35,033 nucleotides of DNA from an uncultured Bacilli bacterium (GTDB taxonomy: Bacteria > Bacillota_I > Bacilli_A > RF39 > UBA660): the NCBI GenBank assembly GCA_947624515.1, contig CANQKN010000006.1, positions 1 to 35,033 on the forward strand, given 5' to 3'. The notes below the pieces were generated by a model. The model was not told where the DNA came from. It saw nothing but the letters and a program-made list of their open reading frames with translations, and did not search any database. Positions 5,513-35,033 of this stretch are shown one piece after another (position 1 is the stretch's first letter; each line of letters begins with the position of its first letter). Made by a program: the position numbers and the translations under genes.

Positions 5513-7303
5513 ATGAATAAGGGTAGGAAACTATATTTTATGATATTAATATTAACTGTAGTTTTAGTATCGGCAGTGTATTTTTCGTATGCTATTTTTA
5601 CTAATAAAGTAGAAGAACATGGAAAGTTAAATATAGTAGCAGGAACACTAGATTATAAAATAGAGAGTGATAATTTAAAAAATAATCAAATAACTTTAAA
5701 ATCAAAAATGACACAAGAAATAATTATCAAAGTGATTTCCTTAAATAAAATTGATTCTAATTACGAGTTATATTATGAGATTAAAGAAGGAACAGATGTA
5801 GAAGTAGGATATAGTGAGAATACTAAAGATAACCCAAGCGGAACTATTAAAGCTGATGAATCAAAAGAAATCACAGTAACTATTCAAAATAAAAGTAATG
5901 ATAATGCTACTATAGAATTTAAAGTACTAGGTGGATTTACTCATAATGAGTTAGTGTTAGAACAAGGAAATAAAATAAATTTAACCAGTTTATATGTAGA
6001 GGAAATTTTAAATGGAGCGGATCCAGTATTAAAAGGAAATTTAATACCAGTAACAATAGATAAGGATGGGACTGTAAGAAAAGCAGATATCAGTAAAAAG
6101 TGGTATAGTTATGAAGAAAAAGAATGGGCCAATGCAGTTATCTTGAAAGATGAGTCAAAAACTTATACCAATGAACAAACTATTCCAGAAGATGAAATAG
6201 AAAGCTATTTTGTATGGATACCGAAATACAGTTATCAAATATGGGATTTAGGAACAAGTTATACAGGAGTAACCACATTAGATACTAAAAAAGTACATGC
6301 AATCAATATCCAATTTGGAACAGAGGATACAACAAATAGTAGTAATAGTTGTGCAACACCAAACAAAACTGGAGACAGTGGAAGTTGTCAAGTAGGATAT
6401 TATATGACACATCCAGCATTTACATCCTTTGGAGTAAATGGAATATGGGTAGGAAAATTTGAAACAGGATATAATGGAGCAACCCAAACTAGTGGAGCAG
6501 AACAAGATAGTAGTGATCATACTAAAATAATAATCAAGCCCAATGTATATAGTTGGAGAAATATAACCATAGGGCATGCTTTTCAAGCAAGTTATAATTA
6601 CCAAAGAGAAGAATTAGATAGTCATATGATGAAGAATACAGAATGGGGAGCAGTAGCATATTTAAGTCACTCCAAATATGGAACCTGTACTAATGGAAAT
6701 TGTAGTGAGGTAAGAGTTAATAATAATGAAGCATATATTACTGGATATGCAGCAACAGTAGCACCAACAAAAGGATATAGTACTACTAGTATAGAAGGAA
6801 ATCAATTTGAAACGACTTCATTAGGGGATGATGGAACCTATACAGTAAATTATAAAAATAGTAGTGCAGATGTAGCATCAACAACAGGAAATAAAACAGG
6901 AATCTATGATATGAGTGGAGGATCCTGGGAATATGTTGTAGGTTATACCACTTCAAATGGAAGTAATGATAAATCAGAACTTAATACAGTAACTTATCCT
7001 CTAAAATATTATGACATTTATTCATCAACCAAAGATAAAAATTATAATAATCGTATTTTGGGAGATGCAACCGGAGAGATGGGGCCATTTGGAAGTAAAG
7101 TTGATCCAGATAATATTGCACATAATCGCTCTAGCTGGTATGAGGATTATGCTTATTTCGCGGACTTGTCTTATCCATGGTTTGAACGTGGTGGTGGTTG
7201 GTATGATGGTACAATTGCTGGTGTTTTTGCATTCATACATGGGACTGGTAGATTGAATTTATCGAATTCTTTCCGTATCGTCCTAGCACCAAATAATGAC
7301 TAA
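5513..7303 (+). CDS. SipW-type exported surface protein with FGE/C-type-lectin-like C-terminal domain
   Basis: Predicted surface protein of 596 residues. The N-terminus (KGRK, then a hydrophobic stretch at 8-24, then SYAIFTNK at 25-32) followed by GKLNIVAGTLDYKI resembles the camelysin/TasA class processed by SipW-type signal peptidases. Residues about 45-150 look like a beta-sandwich. From about 230 the sequence (YFVWIPKYSYQIW, GIWVGKFETGYNG, NTEWGAVAYLSHSKYG, YDMSGGSWEYV at 465-475, YPWFERGGGW at 554-563, final SFRIVL) resembles the formylglycine-generating-enzyme/C-type-lectin fold used for ligand display. AAGGAG precedes the ATG. Glycine codons are nearly all GGA up to about residue 538, then almost all GGT, so the last 58 residues have a different codon history. 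No LPxTG anchor is present. Domain calls are by pattern. Confidence 0.8.
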   Translation: MNKGRKLYFMILILTVVLVSAVYFSYAIFTNKVEEHGKLNIVAGTLDYKIESDNLKNNQITLKSKMTQEIIIKVISLNKIDSNYELYYEIKEGTDVEVGYSENTKDNPSGTIKADESKEITVTIQNKSNDNATIEFKVLGGFTHNELVLEQGNKINLTSLYVEEILNGADPVLKGNLIPVTIDKDGTVRKADISKKWYSYEEKEWANAVILKDESKTYTNEQTIPEDEIESYFVWIPKYSYQIWDLGTSYTGVTTLDTKKVHAINIQFGTEDTTNSSNSCATPNKTGDSGSCQVGYYMTHPAFTSFGVNGIWVGKFETGYNGATQTSGAEQDSSDHTKIIIKPNVYSWRNITIGHAFQASYNYQREELDSHMMKNTEWGAVAYLSHSKYGTCTNGNCSEVRVNNNEAYITGYAATVAPTKGYSTTSIEGNQFETTSLGDDGTYTVNYKNSSADVASTTGNKTGIYDMSGGSWEYVVGYTTSNGSNDKSELNTVTYPLKYYDIYSSTKDKNYNNRILGDATGEMGPFGSKVDPDNIAHNRSSWYEDYAYFADLSYPWFERGGGWYDGTIAGVFAFIHGTGRLNLSNSFRIVLAPNND

Positions 7304-7657: not shown

Positions 7658-9295
7658 ATGCGACGCAAGAAATTAAGAATCAACAATTATATGGAAGGTG
7701 CTTTTATTGCAACTCTAGGTATCGTTATTTCCAAAATTTTAGGAATGATTTATGTAATCCCTTTTTATTCTATTATTGGAGAGCAGGGGGGAGCATTATA
7801 TGGTTATGCTTATAATATCTATTCTATTTTTTTAGGAATTTCTTCTGCCGGAATTCCGTTAGCAATTAGTAAGATTGTAAGTGAATATAATACTTTAGAA
7901 TTGTATGAATCCAAAGAAAAGGTTTTTAAAATTGCTCGAATAGTATTAAGTACTTTAGGTATTATTTGTTTTCTTGTATTAGTGATTTTTGCTAGAAATA
8001 TTGCGACTATGATTATTGGTAATATTCAAGGTGGTAATTCGATTGAAGATATTGTTTATGTTATTCGCGTAATTGCTGTTAGTATTTTAGTTGTTCCTAT
8101 TTTAAGTGTTTATCGTGGATATTTACAGGGACATCGTTTTATGGAGCCTACTTCTGTTAGTCAAGTTTTGGAACAAATTATTCGTGTTACTATTATTATT
8201 GTTGGCAGTTTCTTAGCAATTAAAATTTTCCATTTAGAATTAAAACAAGCTGTTGGTATTGCGTTATTTGGTGCGACAGTTGGTGCAGTATTTTCTACTC
8301 TTTATTTAGTTAGGAAAGTTGCTAAAAATAAAGAAGTTTTAAAAAATCATCCTAAAGAAGCTGTTGTTAAAACAACTAAAGAAATTATTTGGCAAATTCT
8401 CATCTATGCTTTTCCTTTTATCTTTAGTGATGTTTGCAAATCACTATATAATTCTGTCGATACATTTTTTGTAGTTAAGACTTTAGTTAATGATTTAGGG
8501 TATCGTGTAACAGATGCTGAAGCTATCATGGGATTTATTTCTACATGGGGTAATAAATTAAATATGATCGTGATTGCGATTGGAACTGGATTTATGGCAA
8601 GTTTGATTCCTAACTTAACGATTAGTTTAGTCAAAAAAGATAAAAAAGATATTAATCATAAAATTAATAAAACTTTACAAATATTAGTTATGATTACTTT
8701 GCCAATGACAGTAGGATTAAGTTTTTTAGCAAAACCAGTTTGGAATATTTTCTATGGAGCAAGTTATTATGGACCTAGAGTATTTGCCTTTTCTATTTTT
8801 ACAGCTTTTGTAACAGTTTTATTAAGTACAGCAACTACTACTTTATTAACTTTAAAAGAATATAAAGTGTTATTTATTAATTTAATTTTAGGATTATTGA
8901 TCAATGCTATTTTTGATGTACCTCTTATGCGTTTATTAGCAGCAATTGGCTTACCTGGTTATTATGGTGCTACTTTATCTACCATTTTAGGAAATACTTT
9001 TTCTATATTAGCAACTTTCCTTTATTTAGGTAAAAAGTATGAAATTCATTTTAAAGAAACAATAAAAGTTATCTTAAAAGTAGTTTTATCTGTTATTTTA
9101 ATGTATTTTGGTTTAATGCTAGTAAAAGTTGTGATTCCATTCCCAACAAGTAGAATTTTCTCTTTTATTATTATTTGTATCTATGCTCTCATTGGTGCTG
9201 GCATTTACTATTTATGTTTAAAGCAATTTCATTTACTCGATACCGTATTAGAAAAGGATTTTTTGTTAAAAATAAAAAAGAAATTGAAGAGGTGA
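7658..9295 (+). CDS. murJ: MurJ/YtgP-type lipid II flippase
   Basis: Moves lipid-linked peptidoglycan precursor across the membrane. The 545-residue protein has many hydrophobic segments spread over its length, as in the 14-helix MOP/MATE-type flippases, and matches the length of Bacillus YtgP (MurJ). Typical features are the N-terminal GAFIATLGIVISKILGMIYVIPFY, the YGYAYNIYSIFLGISSAGIPLAISK segment and the YRGYLQGHRFMEPTSVSQVLEQ loop (about 148-170). SpoVB is a close relative and cannot be fully excluded, but the following FemABX genes favour a role with lipid II. AGGTGAT precedes the ATG. The stop TGA lies 4 bases before the next gene, so all five genes probably form one operon. Confidence 0.85.
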   Translation: MRRKKLRINNYMEGAFIATLGIVISKILGMIYVIPFYSIIGEQGGALYGYAYNIYSIFLGISSAGIPLAISKIVSEYNTLELYESKEKVFKIARIVLSTLGIICFLVLVIFARNIATMIIGNIQGGNSIEDIVYVIRVIAVSILVVPILSVYRGYLQGHRFMEPTSVSQVLEQIIRVTIIIVGSFLAIKIFHLELKQAVGIALFGATVGAVFSTLYLVRKVAKNKEVLKNHPKEAVVKTTKEIIWQILIYAFPFIFSDVCKSLYNSVDTFFVVKTLVNDLGYRVTDAEAIMGFISTWGNKLNMIVIAIGTGFMASLIPNLTISLVKKDKKDINHKINKTLQILVMITLPMTVGLSFLAKPVWNIFYGASYYGPRVFAFSIFTAFVTVLLSTATTTLLTLKEYKVLFINLILGLLINAIFDVPLMRLLAAIGLPGYYGATLSTILGNTFSILATFLYLGKKYEIHFKETIKVILKVVLSVILMYFGLMLVKVVIPFPTSRIFSFIIICIYALIGAGIYYLCLKQFHLLDTVLEKDFLLKIKKKLKR

Positions 9296-9299
9296 CGCT

Positions 9300-10568
9300 A
9301 TGAAATTCGAAATATTAACAGAGGAACAATTTAATACTTTTGCAAAGAGCCATGAACAAGCTAGTTTTTTTCAAACAGCAGAGACTGCTAAATTAAGAAG
9401 TATTTATGGTAGTAAGATTCATTTTGTAGGAGTTACTAAAAATAAAAAAATTATTGCAGCTAGTATGTTAACAGAAACTACCACTTTTCGAGGAAAGAAA
9501 ACTTTTTATGCACCTCGGGGTTTCTTATTAGACTATCATAATTATGAAGTACTAGAGTTCTTTGTTACCAATTTAAAAGCTTATTTAAAGGATAAGAATC
9601 CCTTACAAATCAAAATTGATCCCAATGTTATTTATCGTGTTCATGCCAATGATGGTAGTATTATAGAAGAAAATGGTTGTGATCATGAAACTCTTGAAAA
9701 TTTAAAAAAAGTAGGATTTTATCATTATGGATTTAATACGGATTTTATCTATACTCAATCTAGGTGGAATGTAAGATTAGAATTAGATAAAGATTATGAA
9801 AAATTAAAAAAAGGCTTTTCGAAAAGTACGAGGAAAAACATAGAATCTACTTATAAAAAAGGTGTTAGAGTCAGAAAAGGTACTTTTGAAGATTTAGAGT
9901 CTATGGAAGAAATTTTAATTAAGACTGCTGAAAGAAAGCATTTTGAAGCAAGAAGTCTAGAATACTATCAAAATATGTATCAGTGTCTAGGTAGTTTAAT
10001 GAATATTTATATTGCTTATTTGGATAGTGATATTTACTTAAACAGTACTATGGAATTATTAAAAGAAGAAAAACAGCATCATCAAGAAATTTTAGATAAA
10101 ATGGAAAAAGATATGGTAGGTAGTAAATTAATTCATCAAAAAGAAACTTCCGAACATCTTTTGGAAAAATTAGAACTAGAGGTGAAAGAGGCTAAACAAT
10201 TTCAGAAGGATTATCCACAAGGTAAAAATATCGGAGTTTTAATTTCTTTAGAATCTGGTTTAGAATATATTACATTATATAGTGGTATTTTAGTTGAGTA
10301 TAAAAAGTTTACTCCTAAGTATTTAATGTATGATGCACATATTCGTGATGCTTATGAGAAAAAAATAAAGTATGTTAATTTTTATGGAATATCTGGTATT
10401 TTTGATCCTAAAGATAAGGATTATGGAATGTTTGAATTTAAAAGAGGATTTGGTGGAAATGTAGTTGAATTAATTGGAGAATTTTCTTATCCACTTAGTC
10501 CGTACTATCATATTTATATCTTTTTAAGAAATATAAAAAGAAAAATATATAATTTAAGAAATAAGTAG
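9300..10568 (+). CDS. FemABX peptidoglycan bridge aminoacyltransferase, copy 1
   Basis: Expected to transfer an amino acid from aminoacyl-tRNA to the peptide of lipid II, building the interpeptide bridge. At 422 residues it has the FemA-type double-GNAT layout: N-terminal QFNTFAKSHEQASFFQT, strand YAPRGFLLDYHNYE (70-83), a charged two-helix arm (about 250-303) like the tRNA-synthetase-like arm of FemA, and the C-terminal GISGIFDPKDKDYGMFEFKRGFGGN followed by VVELIGEF. The ATG follows GAGGTGACGCT. It is the second gene of the murJ operon. The amino acid added cannot be told from sequence. Confidence 0.9.
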   Translation: MKFEILTEEQFNTFAKSHEQASFFQTAETAKLRSIYGSKIHFVGVTKNKKIIAASMLTETTTFRGKKTFYAPRGFLLDYHNYEVLEFFVTNLKAYLKDKNPLQIKIDPNVIYRVHANDGSIIEENGCDHETLENLKKVGFYHYGFNTDFIYTQSRWNVRLELDKDYEKLKKGFSKSTRKNIESTYKKGVRVRKGTFEDLESMEEILIKTAERKHFEARSLEYYQNMYQCLGSLMNIYIAYLDSDIYLNSTMELLKEEKQHHQEILDKMEKDMVGSKLIHQKETSEHLLEKLELEVKEAKQFQKDYPQGKNIGVLISLESGLEYITLYSGILVEYKKFTPKYLMYDAHIRDAYEKKIKYVNFYGISGIFDPKDKDYGMFEFKRGFGGNVVELIGEFSYPLSPYYHIYIFLRNIKRKIYNLRNK

Positions 10569-10576
10569 GTGATATC

Positions 10577-11818
10577 ATGGAGATTTTAGAAAATATTGAG
10601 GAAAAAGAATATACAGATTTTGTATCTCATCACTCTATGAGTCATTTTTTAAAATCATATGAATGGGGACAAGTTTCTAAATCTCGTGGCTTGATTCCAT
10701 ATTATGTAGGAATTAGGAAAAAACAAAAGTTAGTAGCCTGTGCTCTTTTACTAAAAAAAGAATTACCGTTTGGATACTCTTATTTTTATATTCCTAGAGG
10801 GTATACCATTGATTATACTAATTATTCTTTATTAAAAGAATTTACGGAAGCAATCAAAGAATTTACCAAAAAACAGAAATCGCTATTTTTTCGGATTGAT
10901 CCAGATATTTATTTGCATCATATTAATTCTGAAGCAGAGGTAATTGATGATCAAGATAATCATTATGAATTAGTAAAAGAACTTACTAATATTGGTTTTA
11001 AAAGAAGAAAACTAACTAAGTACTTTGAAACTATGCAACCACGGTTTACTTTTCGTGTTGATGTAACACCATCTATGGAAGAAATTAGAAAACGCTATAG
11101 TAAAAGTGTTATTCGTTGGATAAAATTAGCGGATAAGTACCAAGTAGAAGTTAATATTGGAAATCAGGAAGATGTGAAAGAATTCGTAAGACTCATGAAA
11201 TTAACAGAAAAAAGACAGAATTTTTTCTCTCATGAATATTCTTTCTATCAAGAATTTTATGATTTATTTCATGAGAAAGGGTATGTTGATTTACTTTATG
11301 CAACAGTAGATAATCAAAAAGTGTTAGAAGTAGTTAATCAAGAACTTATCAGTATTGAAGATGAAAAAGAAGAAAATAAAGAACGCTATCAAAAATTACT
11401 CATGATGAAAACTCATTTTGAGTCCTTAGATTCTTCTAAAAGACAAGTAGTAAGTGCTTACTTTAATGTAAATTATGGGAATAAAAGCTGGTATCTATAT
11501 GGTGCTAATGATATGGATTATAAACTTACTTATGCTAACTATAAATTATTTGATTTTCAAATAGAACATGCGCATCGTAAAAACAAGGAAATTTTTGATG
11601 AATTTGGTACAGTTGGAAATCCTCATACAACTAAAAGTATTGGTGGACTTCATGAATTTAAAAAGAAATTTGGAGGAGAATACACTGAATTTATTGGAGA
11701 ATTTGATTACATTACCAATTCTTTGATGTATTTTGTATTTATGAAATTGATACCACTTTATCGAAAACCATTAAAATGGCTTCGCCATATCAAAGTTCAT
11801 TTTCAGAAAGGAGCTTAG
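10577..11818 (+). CDS. FemABX aminoacyltransferase, copy 2 (most divergent)
   Basis: Same family and role as its neighbours, 413 residues. It keeps the N-terminal SHFLKSYEWGQVSK, the FYIPRGYTIDYTNY strand and the C-terminal LHEFKKKFGGEYTEFIGEFDY. It differs from the other three in a shorter charged arm (about 255-290) and a rewritten segment, NVNYGNKSWYLYGANDMDY and GTVGNPHTTKSIGGL, where the others have the YxFYGIxG strand. This points to a different acceptor or amino acid, possibly a MurM/FemX-like first step or a branching step; that is inference. It starts 8 bases after copy 1, with GGTGAT as ribosome site. Confidence 0.88.
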   Translation: MEILENIEEKEYTDFVSHHSMSHFLKSYEWGQVSKSRGLIPYYVGIRKKQKLVACALLLKKELPFGYSYFYIPRGYTIDYTNYSLLKEFTEAIKEFTKKQKSLFFRIDPDIYLHHINSEAEVIDDQDNHYELVKELTNIGFKRRKLTKYFETMQPRFTFRVDVTPSMEEIRKRYSKSVIRWIKLADKYQVEVNIGNQEDVKEFVRLMKLTEKRQNFFSHEYSFYQEFYDLFHEKGYVDLLYATVDNQKVLEVVNQELISIEDEKEENKERYQKLLMMKTHFESLDSSKRQVVSAYFNVNYGNKSWYLYGANDMDYKLTYANYKLFDFQIEHAHRKNKEIFDEFGTVGNPHTTKSIGGLHEFKKKFGGEYTEFIGEFDYITNSLMYFVFMKLIPLYRKPLKWLRHIKVHFQKGA

Positions 11819-11819
11819 T

Positions 11820-13112
11820 ATGAAACTAGAAAAAATAACAGAATCTGAATTTTCTAATTTTGCTTACCAACATCCTCTTTTTAGTTTTCATCAAACGAAA
11901 GAATGGGGAGAATTAAAAAAACAGAATGGTTGGGAATATGAATTTGTTGGATATAAAGAGAAACAAAAGATAATTGCAGGAGCTATTCTTTTATCTAAGA
12001 AAACACCAATTGGGAAAAAAATTTTTTATTCACCTAGGGGTTTTTTATTGGATTATGAAAATCAAAAATTATTGGAAACATTCACACGGGAGATGAAAGA
12101 ATATATTAGAAAAGAAAATGGTTTCTTTATTAAAATTGATCCTTATCTAATTTATAAACAAAGAGATATGAATGGTGATATTGTAGAAGGAGGAATCGAT
12201 CACTCCCAAGTGGTTGAAAATTTAAAGAAATTAGGGTACAAGCATTATGGATTTAATCTTACTTTTGGAAGTGAACTTCAGCCTAGATGGATTTATGTTT
12301 TAGATTTAAAGGGAAAAGATGAAGATACTGTTTTTCAAAACTTTTCTAGTGATACTAAAAGATATATTCATCGTGCTATTAAAAATGGTTTAGAAATAGA
12401 GGAGGTAACTTTAGAAAATTTAAAAGATTTTACAGGTATTATGGAACATACTTCTAAAAGAAGAGGCTTTATTAATAGACCTTATTCGTATTATCAAAAT
12501 ATGTTAGAAATACTAGGTAAAAATGTTAAAATATTAAGTTGCTTTTTAGATACTAATCAAGCTTTAGAAAAAGTAAGAGAAGAGAAAAAGGTCTTGGTGC
12601 AGGAAGTGAATGATGCCAAAATTCATATGGAGGAATCTGGTAGTAAGAAAAGTAAAGATCATTTTAAAACAAAACAAACAGAATTAGAAAAACTAGAAAA
12701 AAAGGAACAAGAATTTTTAGAATTAAAAGAAAACCATGGTGATAAAATTATTATGGCAAGTTCGATGTTCTTATTATTTGGACATGAGGTTTTGTATTTA
12801 TATAGTGGATCTTATGAAGAATTTATGAAATATAATGCTCAATATTTGATTCAATGGGAAATCATACAATATGCCATCAAAAATGGTTATGATCGATATA
12901 ATTTTTATGGAATCGAGGGTAATTTTCAGAAAGAAAATAATGATACTTATGGAATTTATGAATTTAAAAAAGGTTTTGATGGTAATGTAGAAGAGTTTAT
13001 TGGGGAGTTTGACTTAGTAATTAGTAAATTCTATTATTATTTATATAAGCTTTTATTTAAAGTCTATCGTGGTATGAAACATTTATTATTTAAATTAAAA
13101 GGAGGAAAATAG
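11820..13112 (+). CDS. FemABX aminoacyltransferase, copy 3
   Basis: 430 residues with the full FemABX pattern: FSFHQTKEWGELKKQNGWEYEF near the N-terminus, YSPRGFLLDYE (about 70-80), a long charged coiled arm (about 245-305, with LEKVREEKKVLVQEV and KTKQTELEKLEKKEQEF) and the final YNFYGIEGNF ... YGIYEFKKGFDGNVEEFIGEFD. It is most like copies 1 and 4. The start lies one base after the copy 2 stop; the ribosome site AAAGGAG is inside the end of copy 2, so translation is probably coupled. KGFDG replaces the usual KGFGG. Confidence 0.9.
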   Translation: MKLEKITESEFSNFAYQHPLFSFHQTKEWGELKKQNGWEYEFVGYKEKQKIIAGAILLSKKTPIGKKIFYSPRGFLLDYENQKLLETFTREMKEYIRKENGFFIKIDPYLIYKQRDMNGDIVEGGIDHSQVVENLKKLGYKHYGFNLTFGSELQPRWIYVLDLKGKDEDTVFQNFSSDTKRYIHRAIKNGLEIEEVTLENLKDFTGIMEHTSKRRGFINRPYSYYQNMLEILGKNVKILSCFLDTNQALEKVREEKKVLVQEVNDAKIHMEESGSKKSKDHFKTKQTELEKLEKKEQEFLELKENHGDKIIMASSMFLLFGHEVLYLYSGSYEEFMKYNAQYLIQWEIIQYAIKNGYDRYNFYGIEGNFQKENNDTYGIYEFKKGFDGNVEEFIGEFDLVISKFYYYLYKLLFKVYRGMKHLLFKLKGGK

Positions 13113-13113
13113 A

Positions 13114-14403
13114 ATGGAACTACAACAGTTAACAGAAGAAGAATTTAAAAAATTTGCCTATCATCATGAACAAGCTTCCTTTTTACAAACGATTGGTTGG
13201 GGAAAATTAAAGGAAGATAATGGTTGGAAATGTGAATTTGTTGGCTTAGAAAAAAATAAAAAAATCATTGCTGGTACGATGTTACTTTCTAAAATGACTC
13301 CTATTAAGAAAAAAATGTTTTATGCTCCTCATGGTTTTTTATTAGATTATACTAATTTTGAATTATTGGATGAATTTGTATCTCTTATGAAAGATTATGT
13401 AAAGAAAAATAATGGTATCTTCTTTAAGATTGATCCTTATGTTATGTTGGTAGAAAGAGATATTGATGGTAAAAAAGTAGAAAATGGTATTGACCATACT
13501 GAAGTTTATCAACATTTAAAAAAGTTAGGATTTGTGGAAATCAATGGTAAAGTAACAGAACAGACGCTACAAGGAAAATGGATCTATTGGATTGATATTA
13601 ATGGAAAATCCTTAGAAGAAATTATGACTCCTAAAATCCGTCAAGTGATGAAAAAGAATGAAAAAAATGGTGTTTATGTGCGTGAAGGAAGTTATGATGA
13701 ATTAGATAAATTTAAGAAGATTATGGATCATATTAGTAATCGTCGTGAATTCTTAAGTAGATCTTTAAAATATTATCAAGAAATGTATCAGGCTTTACAC
13801 AAAGAGGGAATTTGTAAATTGTATTTTGCTGAATTAAATTTAAAAGAACAGTTAGAGGCTTGTAAGAAAGAATGGGAAGAATTAAATACTGAATATCAAG
13901 CTAAAGAACAGGATTTTAAAGATGGCAAAATTACCGTTAATGAGAAAAAATTTAGAGTAAGACAGAATGAATTAAAAAACGCTATTACTCGTTTAGAAAA
14001 GAGTATTAGCGAATATGAGCCTCTTTATCAAGAACATGGCGATGTTTTAACTTTAGCTGGTATTATGTATATGATTCATGGTAATGAAGTATTATCATTT
14101 ATTGGTGGAGGCTATAGTGATTATTTAGAACTTCAACCTGCCTATTCTATTCACTATGAAATGATTAAATATGCAGTTGAAAATCATTATCGTTACTATA
14201 ATTTCTATGGAATATCAGGTAATTTAGTAGAAAGTGATCCCATGTATGGCGTATATCAGTTTAAACGTGGATTTGGTGGTCAGGTGGTAGAATTAATGGG
14301 AGAATTTGATTATCCAGTTAGTCCATTTTATTATCGAATTTATCGTATTAGTTATGATATTATTCATAAATTAAAAAAGATAAAAACGAAATTACATTTA
14401 TAA
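13114..14403 (+). CDS. FemABX aminoacyltransferase, copy 4
   Basis: 429 residues, last gene of the murJ operon. It shows ASFLQTIGWGKLKEDNGWKCEF, YAPHGFLLDYTNFE (APHG where copies 1 and 3 have PRG), a charged helical arm (about 240-300) and the C-terminal YNFYGISGNL ... YGVYQFKRGFGGQVVELMGEFDYP. It starts one base after copy 3, with AGGAGG just inside that gene's end. The operon ends at the bidirectional terminator at 14417. Four such enzymes behind a flippase suggest stepwise addition of several bridge residues; which copy adds which residue is unknown. Confidence 0.9.
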   Translation: MELQQLTEEEFKKFAYHHEQASFLQTIGWGKLKEDNGWKCEFVGLEKNKKIIAGTMLLSKMTPIKKKMFYAPHGFLLDYTNFELLDEFVSLMKDYVKKNNGIFFKIDPYVMLVERDIDGKKVENGIDHTEVYQHLKKLGFVEINGKVTEQTLQGKWIYWIDINGKSLEEIMTPKIRQVMKKNEKNGVYVREGSYDELDKFKKIMDHISNRREFLSRSLKYYQEMYQALHKEGICKLYFAELNLKEQLEACKKEWEELNTEYQAKEQDFKDGKITVNEKKFRVRQNELKNAITRLEKSISEYEPLYQEHGDVLTLAGIMYMIHGNEVLSFIGGGYSDYLELQPAYSIHYEMIKYAVENHYRYYNFYGISGNLVESDPMYGVYQFKRGFGGQVVELMGEFDYPVSPFYYRIYRISYDIIHKLKKIKTKLHL

Positions 14404-32909: not shown

Positions 32910-34823
32910 ATGGCTAATGCAAAGAAAGAGGAAAATGTAGCAGAAAAAGCTAAAAAGTCTAATCATAAAACTTCTAATAGTAAAAAAGACTCTAGTAATC
33001 AAGTTAGCTCTTCTAAAAAAGTGGTAAAATCCTCAAAAACCAATACTTCTTCTAAGGATGCGACTACTTCCACAAGAAATAAAAATATACAGAGTTCAAA
33101 GCAAAATTCTGTTTCTAAAACTACTGGTAAAAAAGGATCAACCAATCAGAAAAAAACTGTTAAAAAAGTAGTAAATTCTAAAAAAACTAATGGTTCTTCT
33201 AAGAGTACAACTACTTCTACAAAAAATAAAAATATCCAAAGTTCAAAATCTTCTACTCCTAAATCTACTAGTAAAAAAGGTTCTAGTAAACAAGTTGATG
33301 TTTCTAAAAAGAAACTAGTAGAAGCTTCTAATCGTAATTTAAAATCAGATCTTGATTATAAAGATTCTAACAAAGATAAAAGTTCTCTAATTGATCAGCC
33401 AAGAAAAAATCTTAAATCTTATATTTCTCTTATCGGATCTAAAATCAATGCTTTTTTTACACATTTTGGTAAAAATCGTAATTTGAATAAGAAAACAAAA
33501 CATTCACAAAATAGTGAAAAAAAGGAACCTATTTTTACTAAAAAAACCAAAAAGATATTTCTTTTAGTATCTTTGATTTGTGGAATCATTATTCTATTAG
33601 AGGGGGTTATCTTCTTAATTTATTCTATTCAAAACGATCAAAAGAATGTTTATTATGATGTTTTAAATGCTATTGATTTAGATGGCCAGGAAATTGTTGC
33701 TGTAGGGAGTAGCGACTTTCGATATAGTAAATCTCAAAATTATACAAAGGGATATCGAAAAGGTAAACTTATTAAATATGATTCTGAAGGCAAAATTATA
33801 TTTGAAAAAATGTATGATAATGGCATAAATACTAACTTTAATTCTGTTATTTCTGTGAGTGATGGTTATGTAGTAGTTGGAAATGGTGTTTTTAGTGAAG
33901 AAGAACAGGAAAATGAAGCAAGTGAAGCCTTTATCATTAAATTTGATAAAGAAGGAAATATCATTTGGCAAAAATTTTATCAAGTTGTTACCTATACTAC
34001 TTTTAATAAGGTAATAGAAACCACTGACGGTTATGTGGCAATTGGACAAAGTATTTACGCTAATATGGAAATGGGTAATCATACTACTGGTGGAGGTATT
34101 ATTGTCAAATATGATTTTAATGGTAATGAGATTTGGCATAATAATCATGGTGGTATGAAATCAGGAAACTTTAATGATATTATTGAGGTGGATGGAAATT
34201 TCTATGTTGTAGGAAAAGATGCTACTGATAGTGCCAATCTTATTAAATATGATCAAAATGGCAACTATCAATGGCATAAGAATTATAGTTATACAGATGG
34301 AATTGGCTTTACAGGAATTACTTATTTAGATCATTCTTTATATGTAGTTGGTTCTAAAAAAGTATTACCAGAAGGAACTGGAGACGATGATGATCGTACT
34401 ACTACTAATACAGATGCTTTAATAATTAAATATGATTTAGATGGTAATATTCAATATGAAAAAACTTTCGGTGGTAGTAACTATGAGCGATATAATTCGA
34501 TTTTAACTTATAAGAATGAGTTATATGTTATAGGACATACTACTTCTAGTGATGCAGGTTTTAAAGTTGAAACAGACGGTAATCTTATGACAGGAATTTT
34601 GGTCCGCTATGATCAAAATGGAAATATTTTAAAGAAGCAAACTTTTGGTGGTAGTAATAATGATAATTTAACAGATATTGTTACTGATGGTGTTAGTATT
34701 TATATGTGTGGGTATAGTAATAGTAAGAATGGTAATATCACCACTTCTAAGAACAATGGTAAGGATTACTTTGGTAAAATAATAAAAGTTGACTTTAAAT
34801 TTAGAACTTTAATTGTTAAATAA
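32910..34823 (+). CDS. Membrane-anchored protein with Lys/Ser/Thr-rich N-terminus and seven propeller-like repeats
   Basis: Not a named family that I recognise; 637 residues. Residues 1-210 are basic, low-complexity Lys/Ser/Thr sequence, including a tandem duplication of about 45 residues (36-80 and 85-128, both with KNKNIQSSK). One membrane segment lies at about 216-239, and by positive-inside logic the N-terminus is cytoplasmic and the rest outside. Residues 248-637 hold seven repeats of about 50-60 residues with the pattern FNxII...DGYVVVG ... IIKYDxxGNxxWxKxxGG, as expected for a seven-bladed beta-propeller. GGAGG precedes the ATG. It follows tyrS closely and may be under T-box control. 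Confidence 0.85.
   Translation: MANAKKEENVAEKAKKSNHKTSNSKKDSSNQVSSSKKVVKSSKTNTSSKDATTSTRNKNIQSSKQNSVSKTTGKKGSTNQKKTVKKVVNSKKTNGSSKSTTTSTKNKNIQSSKSSTPKSTSKKGSSKQVDVSKKKLVEASNRNLKSDLDYKDSNKDKSSLIDQPRKNLKSYISLIGSKINAFFTHFGKNRNLNKKTKHSQNSEKKEPIFTKKTKKIFLLVSLICGIIILLEGVIFLIYSIQNDQKNVYYDVLNAIDLDGQEIVAVGSSDFRYSKSQNYTKGYRKGKLIKYDSEGKIIFEKMYDNGINTNFNSVISVSDGYVVVGNGVFSEEEQENEASEAFIIKFDKEGNIIWQKFYQVVTYTTFNKVIETTDGYVAIGQSIYANMEMGNHTTGGGIIVKYDFNGNEIWHNNHGGMKSGNFNDIIEVDGNFYVVGKDATDSANLIKYDQNGNYQWHKNYSYTDGIGFTGITYLDHSLYVVGSKKVLPEGTGDDDDRTTTNTDALIIKYDLDGNIQYEKTFGGSNYERYNSILTYKNELYVIGHTTSSDAGFKVETDGNLMTGILVRYDQNGNILKKQTFGGSNNDNLTDIVTDGVSIYMCGYSNSKNGNITTSKNNGKDYFGKIIKVDFKFRTLIVK
33015..33293 (+). repeat. Two-copy tandem repeat in the basic N-terminal region
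   Basis: Codes for residues 36-80 and 85-128 of the propeller protein. Both units run KKVV..S.KTN.SSK...TTST.NKNIQSSK and end in a Gly-Ser-rich KKGS. The copies differ by scattered substitutions, so the duplication is not very recent. Confidence 0.75.
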
Positions 34824-34838: not shown

Positions 34839-34872
34839 AAAGGAATGTGTATTTTAACACTTTCCTTTTTTG
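34839..34872 (+). terminator. Terminator of the tyrS-propeller transcript
   Basis: AAAGGAA-T-GTGT pairs with ACAC-T-TTCCTTT across a short loop (one mismatch), followed by six Ts. It lies directly before the next -35. Confidence 0.7.
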
Positions 34873-34901
34873 TTGACAAAAGTGCCTGGGGGGGGTAGAA
34901 T
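34873..34901 (+). promoter_or_regulatory. Consensus promoter with a G8 tract in its spacer
   Basis: TTGACA (34873-34878), 17-base spacer, TAGAAT (34896-34901). The last eight spacer bases (34888-34895) are all G, directly beside the -10. Gain or loss of one G would change the spacer to 18 or 16. Confidence 0.8.
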
Positions 34902-34933
34902 AAAGATAGAAAAATAGTAGTATGGAGGATACC

Positions 34934-35033
34934 ATGAAGAAGAAAGTGAAAAAAAGTAAAAAGAAGGAATTGATAATTACTATTATGGCTTTAATTAGTT
35001 TAGTAGTAATAACTGTAGGAATTAGTTATGCTT
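34934..35033 (+). CDS. SipW-type exported protein, N-terminus only (runs off the window)
   Basis: Only 33 residues are visible: MKKKVKKSKKKELI, then a hydrophobic stretch (ITIMALISLVVITVG) and ISYA. Very basic start, hydrophobic core and SYA near the cut site resemble the surface protein at 5513 (FSYAIF), so this is probably another camelysin/TasA-like SipW-dependent exported protein. Its mature domains lie outside the window. GGAGG lies between an in-frame upstream ATG (34922) and this one, favouring 34934. It is driven by the G8-tract promoter. Confidence 0.75.
   Translation, partial: MKKKVKKSKKKELIITIMALISLVVITVGISYA

Follow-up and report, generated by a model that had tools for sequence, protein, structure and literature searches.

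The window analyzed here, 35,033 nucleotides long and the entire contig C6 of a 72-contig, 1.02-Mb genome, ends in a promoter that is very probably phase-variable, of the spacer-length type, to judge from its sequence and its relatives. The promoter carries a run of eight G residues between its -35 and -10 hexamers, and precedes the start of a gene for a putative exported protein.

Promoter architecture in the window

The promoter and its surroundings comprise the following features:

34839..34868, + strand: terminator-like hairpin with T tail, immediately 5' of the -35
34873..34878, + strand: -35 hexamer TTGACA, perfect; also in the paralogs on contigs C29, C49 and C53
34879..34895, + strand: spacer AAAGTGCCTGGGGGGGG, 17 bp (18 bp, with G9, in the C53 paralog)
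34888..34895, + strand: G8 homopolymer, the proposed slippage tract, directly abutting the -10
34896..34901, + strand: -10 hexamer TAGAAT, 5/6
34924..34929, + strand: ribosome-binding site GGAGGA, read from sequence; conserved in C53 and C29
34934..35033, + strand: start of putative exported-protein gene with SipW-like signal; ATG at 34934, gene truncated by the contig end

A previous sequence-only reading had described TTGACA and TAGAAT at 17-bp spacing with G8 beside the -10, and this description was exact to the coordinate. Its remark that the G8 run is unmatched elsewhere in the window also held, the runner-up being an intragenic G6 (7786-7791), and shuffled versions of the window would contain 0.08 G8 runs on average. 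A homopolymer between the two hexamers is a feature of the spacer-length phase-variable class of the porA/tp0126 type. The upstream hairpin has a predicted RNA fold of -11.4 kcal/mol (z -3.2) and is followed by a T run; it is missing from a consensus terminator scan, probably through an internal mismatch. The promoter match on its own is weak evidence, not above chance in AT-rich DNA, as the last 534 bases of the window contain 3 promoter-like sites versus 3.0 in shuffles. Comparative evidence was therefore sought.

Downstream gene and signal peptidase

The open reading frame at 34934 starts with MKKKVKKSKKKELIITIMALISLVVITVGISYA, a basic stretch followed by a hydrophobic one and SYA, in agreement with the basic, SYA-containing export signal reported earlier, and runs for 33 codons before the contig end. 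The resulting 33-aa fragment resembles a SipW-type signal but matched no curated model. It also resembles the signal of L274, a same-genus protein with PARCEL repeats, which has 13 matching places in the present genome, including two PARCEL proteins (contigs C1 and C2). Because the body of the window gene is missing, its predicted identity as a surface protein is based on the signal segment and on these relatives. The genome encodes a SipW/ER-type signal peptidase on contig C11 (L333:714-1391), which scores above the cut-off of TIGR02228 and, with E=3e-24, below that of the SipW model NF046067.

Several other window features were noted in passing. The gene at 5513-7303 encodes a second exported protein (596 aa), with FSYAIF in a SipW-like signal; its upstream region has no G tract, and its family matches include none above cut-off. 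The 637-aa protein at 32910-34823 combines a Ser/Lys-rich N-terminus with a single membrane segment and a region that resembles a beta-propeller (SBBP-type match, E=3e-12, below cut-off). Four tandem genes at 9300-14403 (413-430 aa) look by eye like FemABX-type peptidyltransferases, which are cell-wall bridge enzymes. An ORF pair at 1031-1833 (69 and 194 aa) looks by eye like one gene split near 1240, and is possibly a decayed transposase-type protein.

Copies within the same genome

The whole 1.02-Mb genome contains three G runs of at least seven residues, and each of them lies at this type of promoter. Together with a fourth copy without a G run, they are arranged as follows:

C6 (the window): G8, 17-bp spacer
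C53: G9, 18-bp spacer
C49: G8, at the contig edge
C29: AGTTAGGAAAAAGG, 18 bp, no G run; -35, -10, leader and signal sequence as in the others

There are thus at least three poly-G promoters in this genome, at least two of which precede near-identical SipW-like signal sequences. DNA identity is 96% both between the 34934..35033 region and C29 and between the promoter region and C53. Each copy reaches the end of its contig within or ahead of the signal region, which is what an assembly should give where the 5' ends of several genes are nearly identical.

The same arrangement could be explained if 5' portions of genes, each a promoter with its signal sequence, were duplicated and served recombination between gene bodies, so that cassette shuffling varies the proteins and the G tract is incidental. 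The near-identical promoter and signal DNA of C6, C29 and C53, the breakage of all three contigs at that point, and the known shuffling of PARCEL proteins (PMC2996958) are in line with such a mechanism. However, the C29 copy lacks the G tract, and duplication therefore does not need one, whereas poly-G promoters recur ahead of unrelated genes in many genera. We consider shuffling as the sole explanation improbable, although it could coexist with tract switching.

Recurrence in the genus, the family and beyond

Within the genus, a matching promoter with G9 is present in one genome (G159) and two, with G10 and G9, in another (G150), while in a third (G157) G9 stands ahead of a SipW-like signal fused to PARCEL repeats. 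We then searched 145 sampled genomes of the family for the pattern TTGACA-N-G6+-N-TANAAT and found poly-G promoters in 28, of which 27 belong to other genera. The reversed pattern, used as a control, gave 1 match in total in the 145 genomes. The tract may be placed beside the -35, in mid-spacer or beside the -10. A chance coincidence of promoter match and G run, or an assembly artefact, might be suspected at a site that lies 130 bases from a contig end in AT-rich DNA, where promoter-like matches are common. This explanation is exceedingly unlikely and already refuted, given that 3/3 of the genomic G>=7 runs are found at this promoter type and that the arrangement recurs in 28 family genomes, with almost no matches to the reversed pattern and none to the C-run version.

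The poly-C version of the promoter was found in 0/145 family genomes, which rules out poly-C as an equal alternative to poly-G. The homopolymer on the coding strand is always G and never C family-wide, although switching based on spacing should ignore the strand; spacing alone does not account for this strict preference, a point against the spacer-length reading.

Runs of G>=8 were found in 105/145 family genomes, up to about 69 per genome. Many of them lie in promoters with other -35 sequences, and others in coding sequence. In the genome with about 69 G8+ runs (G021, L311-L316), many of these belong to a different promoter core, TGCAACT-G8/9-TGCAATACAAT, whose -35 is poorly conserved and which precedes two families of exported proteins. 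In a second sample, drawn from the same order and consisting entirely of members of the same family, the exact consensus was present in 39 copies in G224 and 36 in G191, which represent two further species. The order is probably GTDB RF39, to judge from the small genome, the intact MutS, the genes for peptidoglycan and the single family that the order contains. Other families of the class matched in 13/216 genomes. In a separate scan of named genomes, most of the matches listed came from Clostridia and Bacilli, for the larger part MAGs associated with the gut or with animals.

Proteins encoded behind poly-G promoters

A strong N-terminal hydrophobic segment (signal or membrane) is present in 109/124 downstream ORFs (~88%), compared with 3/17 genes of the window, a small control set. 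The cargo of these promoters thus consists mostly of predicted surface or exported proteins, as in the known class. It includes SipW substrates of the camelysin, BsaA and TasA types, PARCEL/DUF285 repeats, SpaA, LPXTG anchors, and VWA, LRR and lectin-like domains. In a few cases the gene behind the poly-G promoter lacks an export segment; by eye, these genes resemble an ABC transporter ATPase (L094) and a glycosyltransferase (L123).

Tract length and spacer distribution

In 14 within-genome sets, the promoter cores from -35 to -10 are identical save for the G count, which ranges from G6 to G13. A G8 fixed in all relatives is not what was found: paralogs carry G8 or G9, same-genus species G9 or G10, and the promoters of other genera, like those of the family as a whole, mostly G8-G13. 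Tract length thus varies between paralogs and between related species while the flanks stay constant. The assembled lengths refer to one genome per species; a search for same-species pairs with differing tract lengths returned exact duplicates of the same assemblies. Length differences over otherwise identical flanks, together with downstream genes that are overwhelmingly exported or membrane-anchored, argue for the phase-variable function proposed in the sequence-only reading.

Alternatively, the G tract may be a fixed element, either structural or bound by a regulator, that adjusts the strength of the promoter, with length differences arising by neutral drift. The strictly G strand preference speaks for such an element, as does the occurrence of the tract beside the -35, in mid-spacer or beside the -10, as might be the case for a bendable element. 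In a binding site, position and flanks should be conserved, whereas both vary widely between genera and it is the length that stays near 8-13; moreover, copies with identical cores differ in G count alone. We regard a fixed element as unlikely, if less so than the shuffling of duplicated gene ends, and favor a phase-variable promoter.

Non-G promoters with the same hexamers in the fetched DNA have a sharp spacing peak at 17 bp (13/21 within 15-19). In contrast, poly-G promoters peak at 19 bp, and 6/80 are at 17 (p=4e-7 vs non-G); in genus g89 the spacer mode is 15 bp and 17-bp copies are rare. The modes at 19 and 15 bp, about 2 bp away from 17, fit a state in which most members would be OFF in the assembled consensus. 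G-rich DNA may also shift the spacer optimum. Loss of mismatch repair can be set aside as a cause, since the genome has an intact MutS1 and 132/145 family genomes score above cut-off for it. Because MutS is intact, slippage would be slower than in mutators.

Proposed mechanism and its implications

In the proposed mechanism, DNA polymerase would slip in the G tract of the spacer and so change the spacer length by one or a few bp. A spacer of about 17 bp would allow strong firing and a longer or shorter one poor firing, so that each tract would switch one exported or surface protein on and off in a reversible and heritable way. The window copy, with 17 bp as assembled, would be ON. The benefit may be surface variation against immunity, phage or changing attachment sites. 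We infer slippage as the cause of the length differences, switching within one population, an effect on transcription, and this benefit.

On a broader scale, a lineage-wide poly-G 'phasome' is likely. The small-genome gut Bacilli of this family would use spacer slippage in G tracts, at as many as dozens of promoters in a genome, to shuffle the exported surface proteins that they express, and many other gut Bacillota would probably do likewise; at a given time, most copies would stand 2 bp from the optimum and a few would be ON. This would make it a candidate genome-wide, many-locus system in uncultured gut bacteria without a known disease role. The tracts are precise, and metagenome reads that already exist would allow them to be scored. 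If the proposal holds, gut commensals vary their surface as a matter of routine, with bearing on immune recognition, phage resistance and strain tracking.

Comparison with known systems

Members of the regulated set share with SipW/TasA/camelysin-type proteins (TIGR04088, TIGR04090, PF12389) a signal ending of SYA/TYA type followed by FF/YF. In Bacillus, SipW/TasA systems provide biofilm matrix proteins and, to our knowledge, are not known as phase-variable. Literature searches for RF39 phase variation, for MAG homopolymers and for slippage in Lachnospiraceae returned nothing relevant, and phase variation is unmentioned in two RF39 genome papers. The Vlp lipoprotein family of Mycoplasma hyorhinis, which has poly-A in its promoter spacers, is similar in being a multigene surface family in which a homopolymer in the promoter switches each member; it differs in its A tract and lipoproteins, as opposed to the G tract and SipW-type exported proteins described here.

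The closest parallels, in anatomy and length variation as read from sequence, are two poly-G promoters. In porA of Neisseria meningitidis, poly-G lies between the -35 and -10, and variants of 9-11 G are known (PMC3639595). In both porA and the window gene, the promoter spacer contains a G homopolymer, and the product is an exposed protein in porA and a putative one here. However, porA is one gene of a Gram-negative pathogen, whereas the uncultured Gram-positive-type gut Bacilli described here, known from sequence, carry from several to dozens of such promoters in a genome. In tp0126 of Treponema pallidum, an OmpW homolog, poly-G is likewise located between the -35 and -10, and a total spacing of 17 nt gives the highest transcription (PMC7864442); this system belongs to another phylum, has other cargo and comprises few loci of exactly that type. 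The principle is already known; the novelty lies in the lineage, in how many loci are involved and in the cargo.
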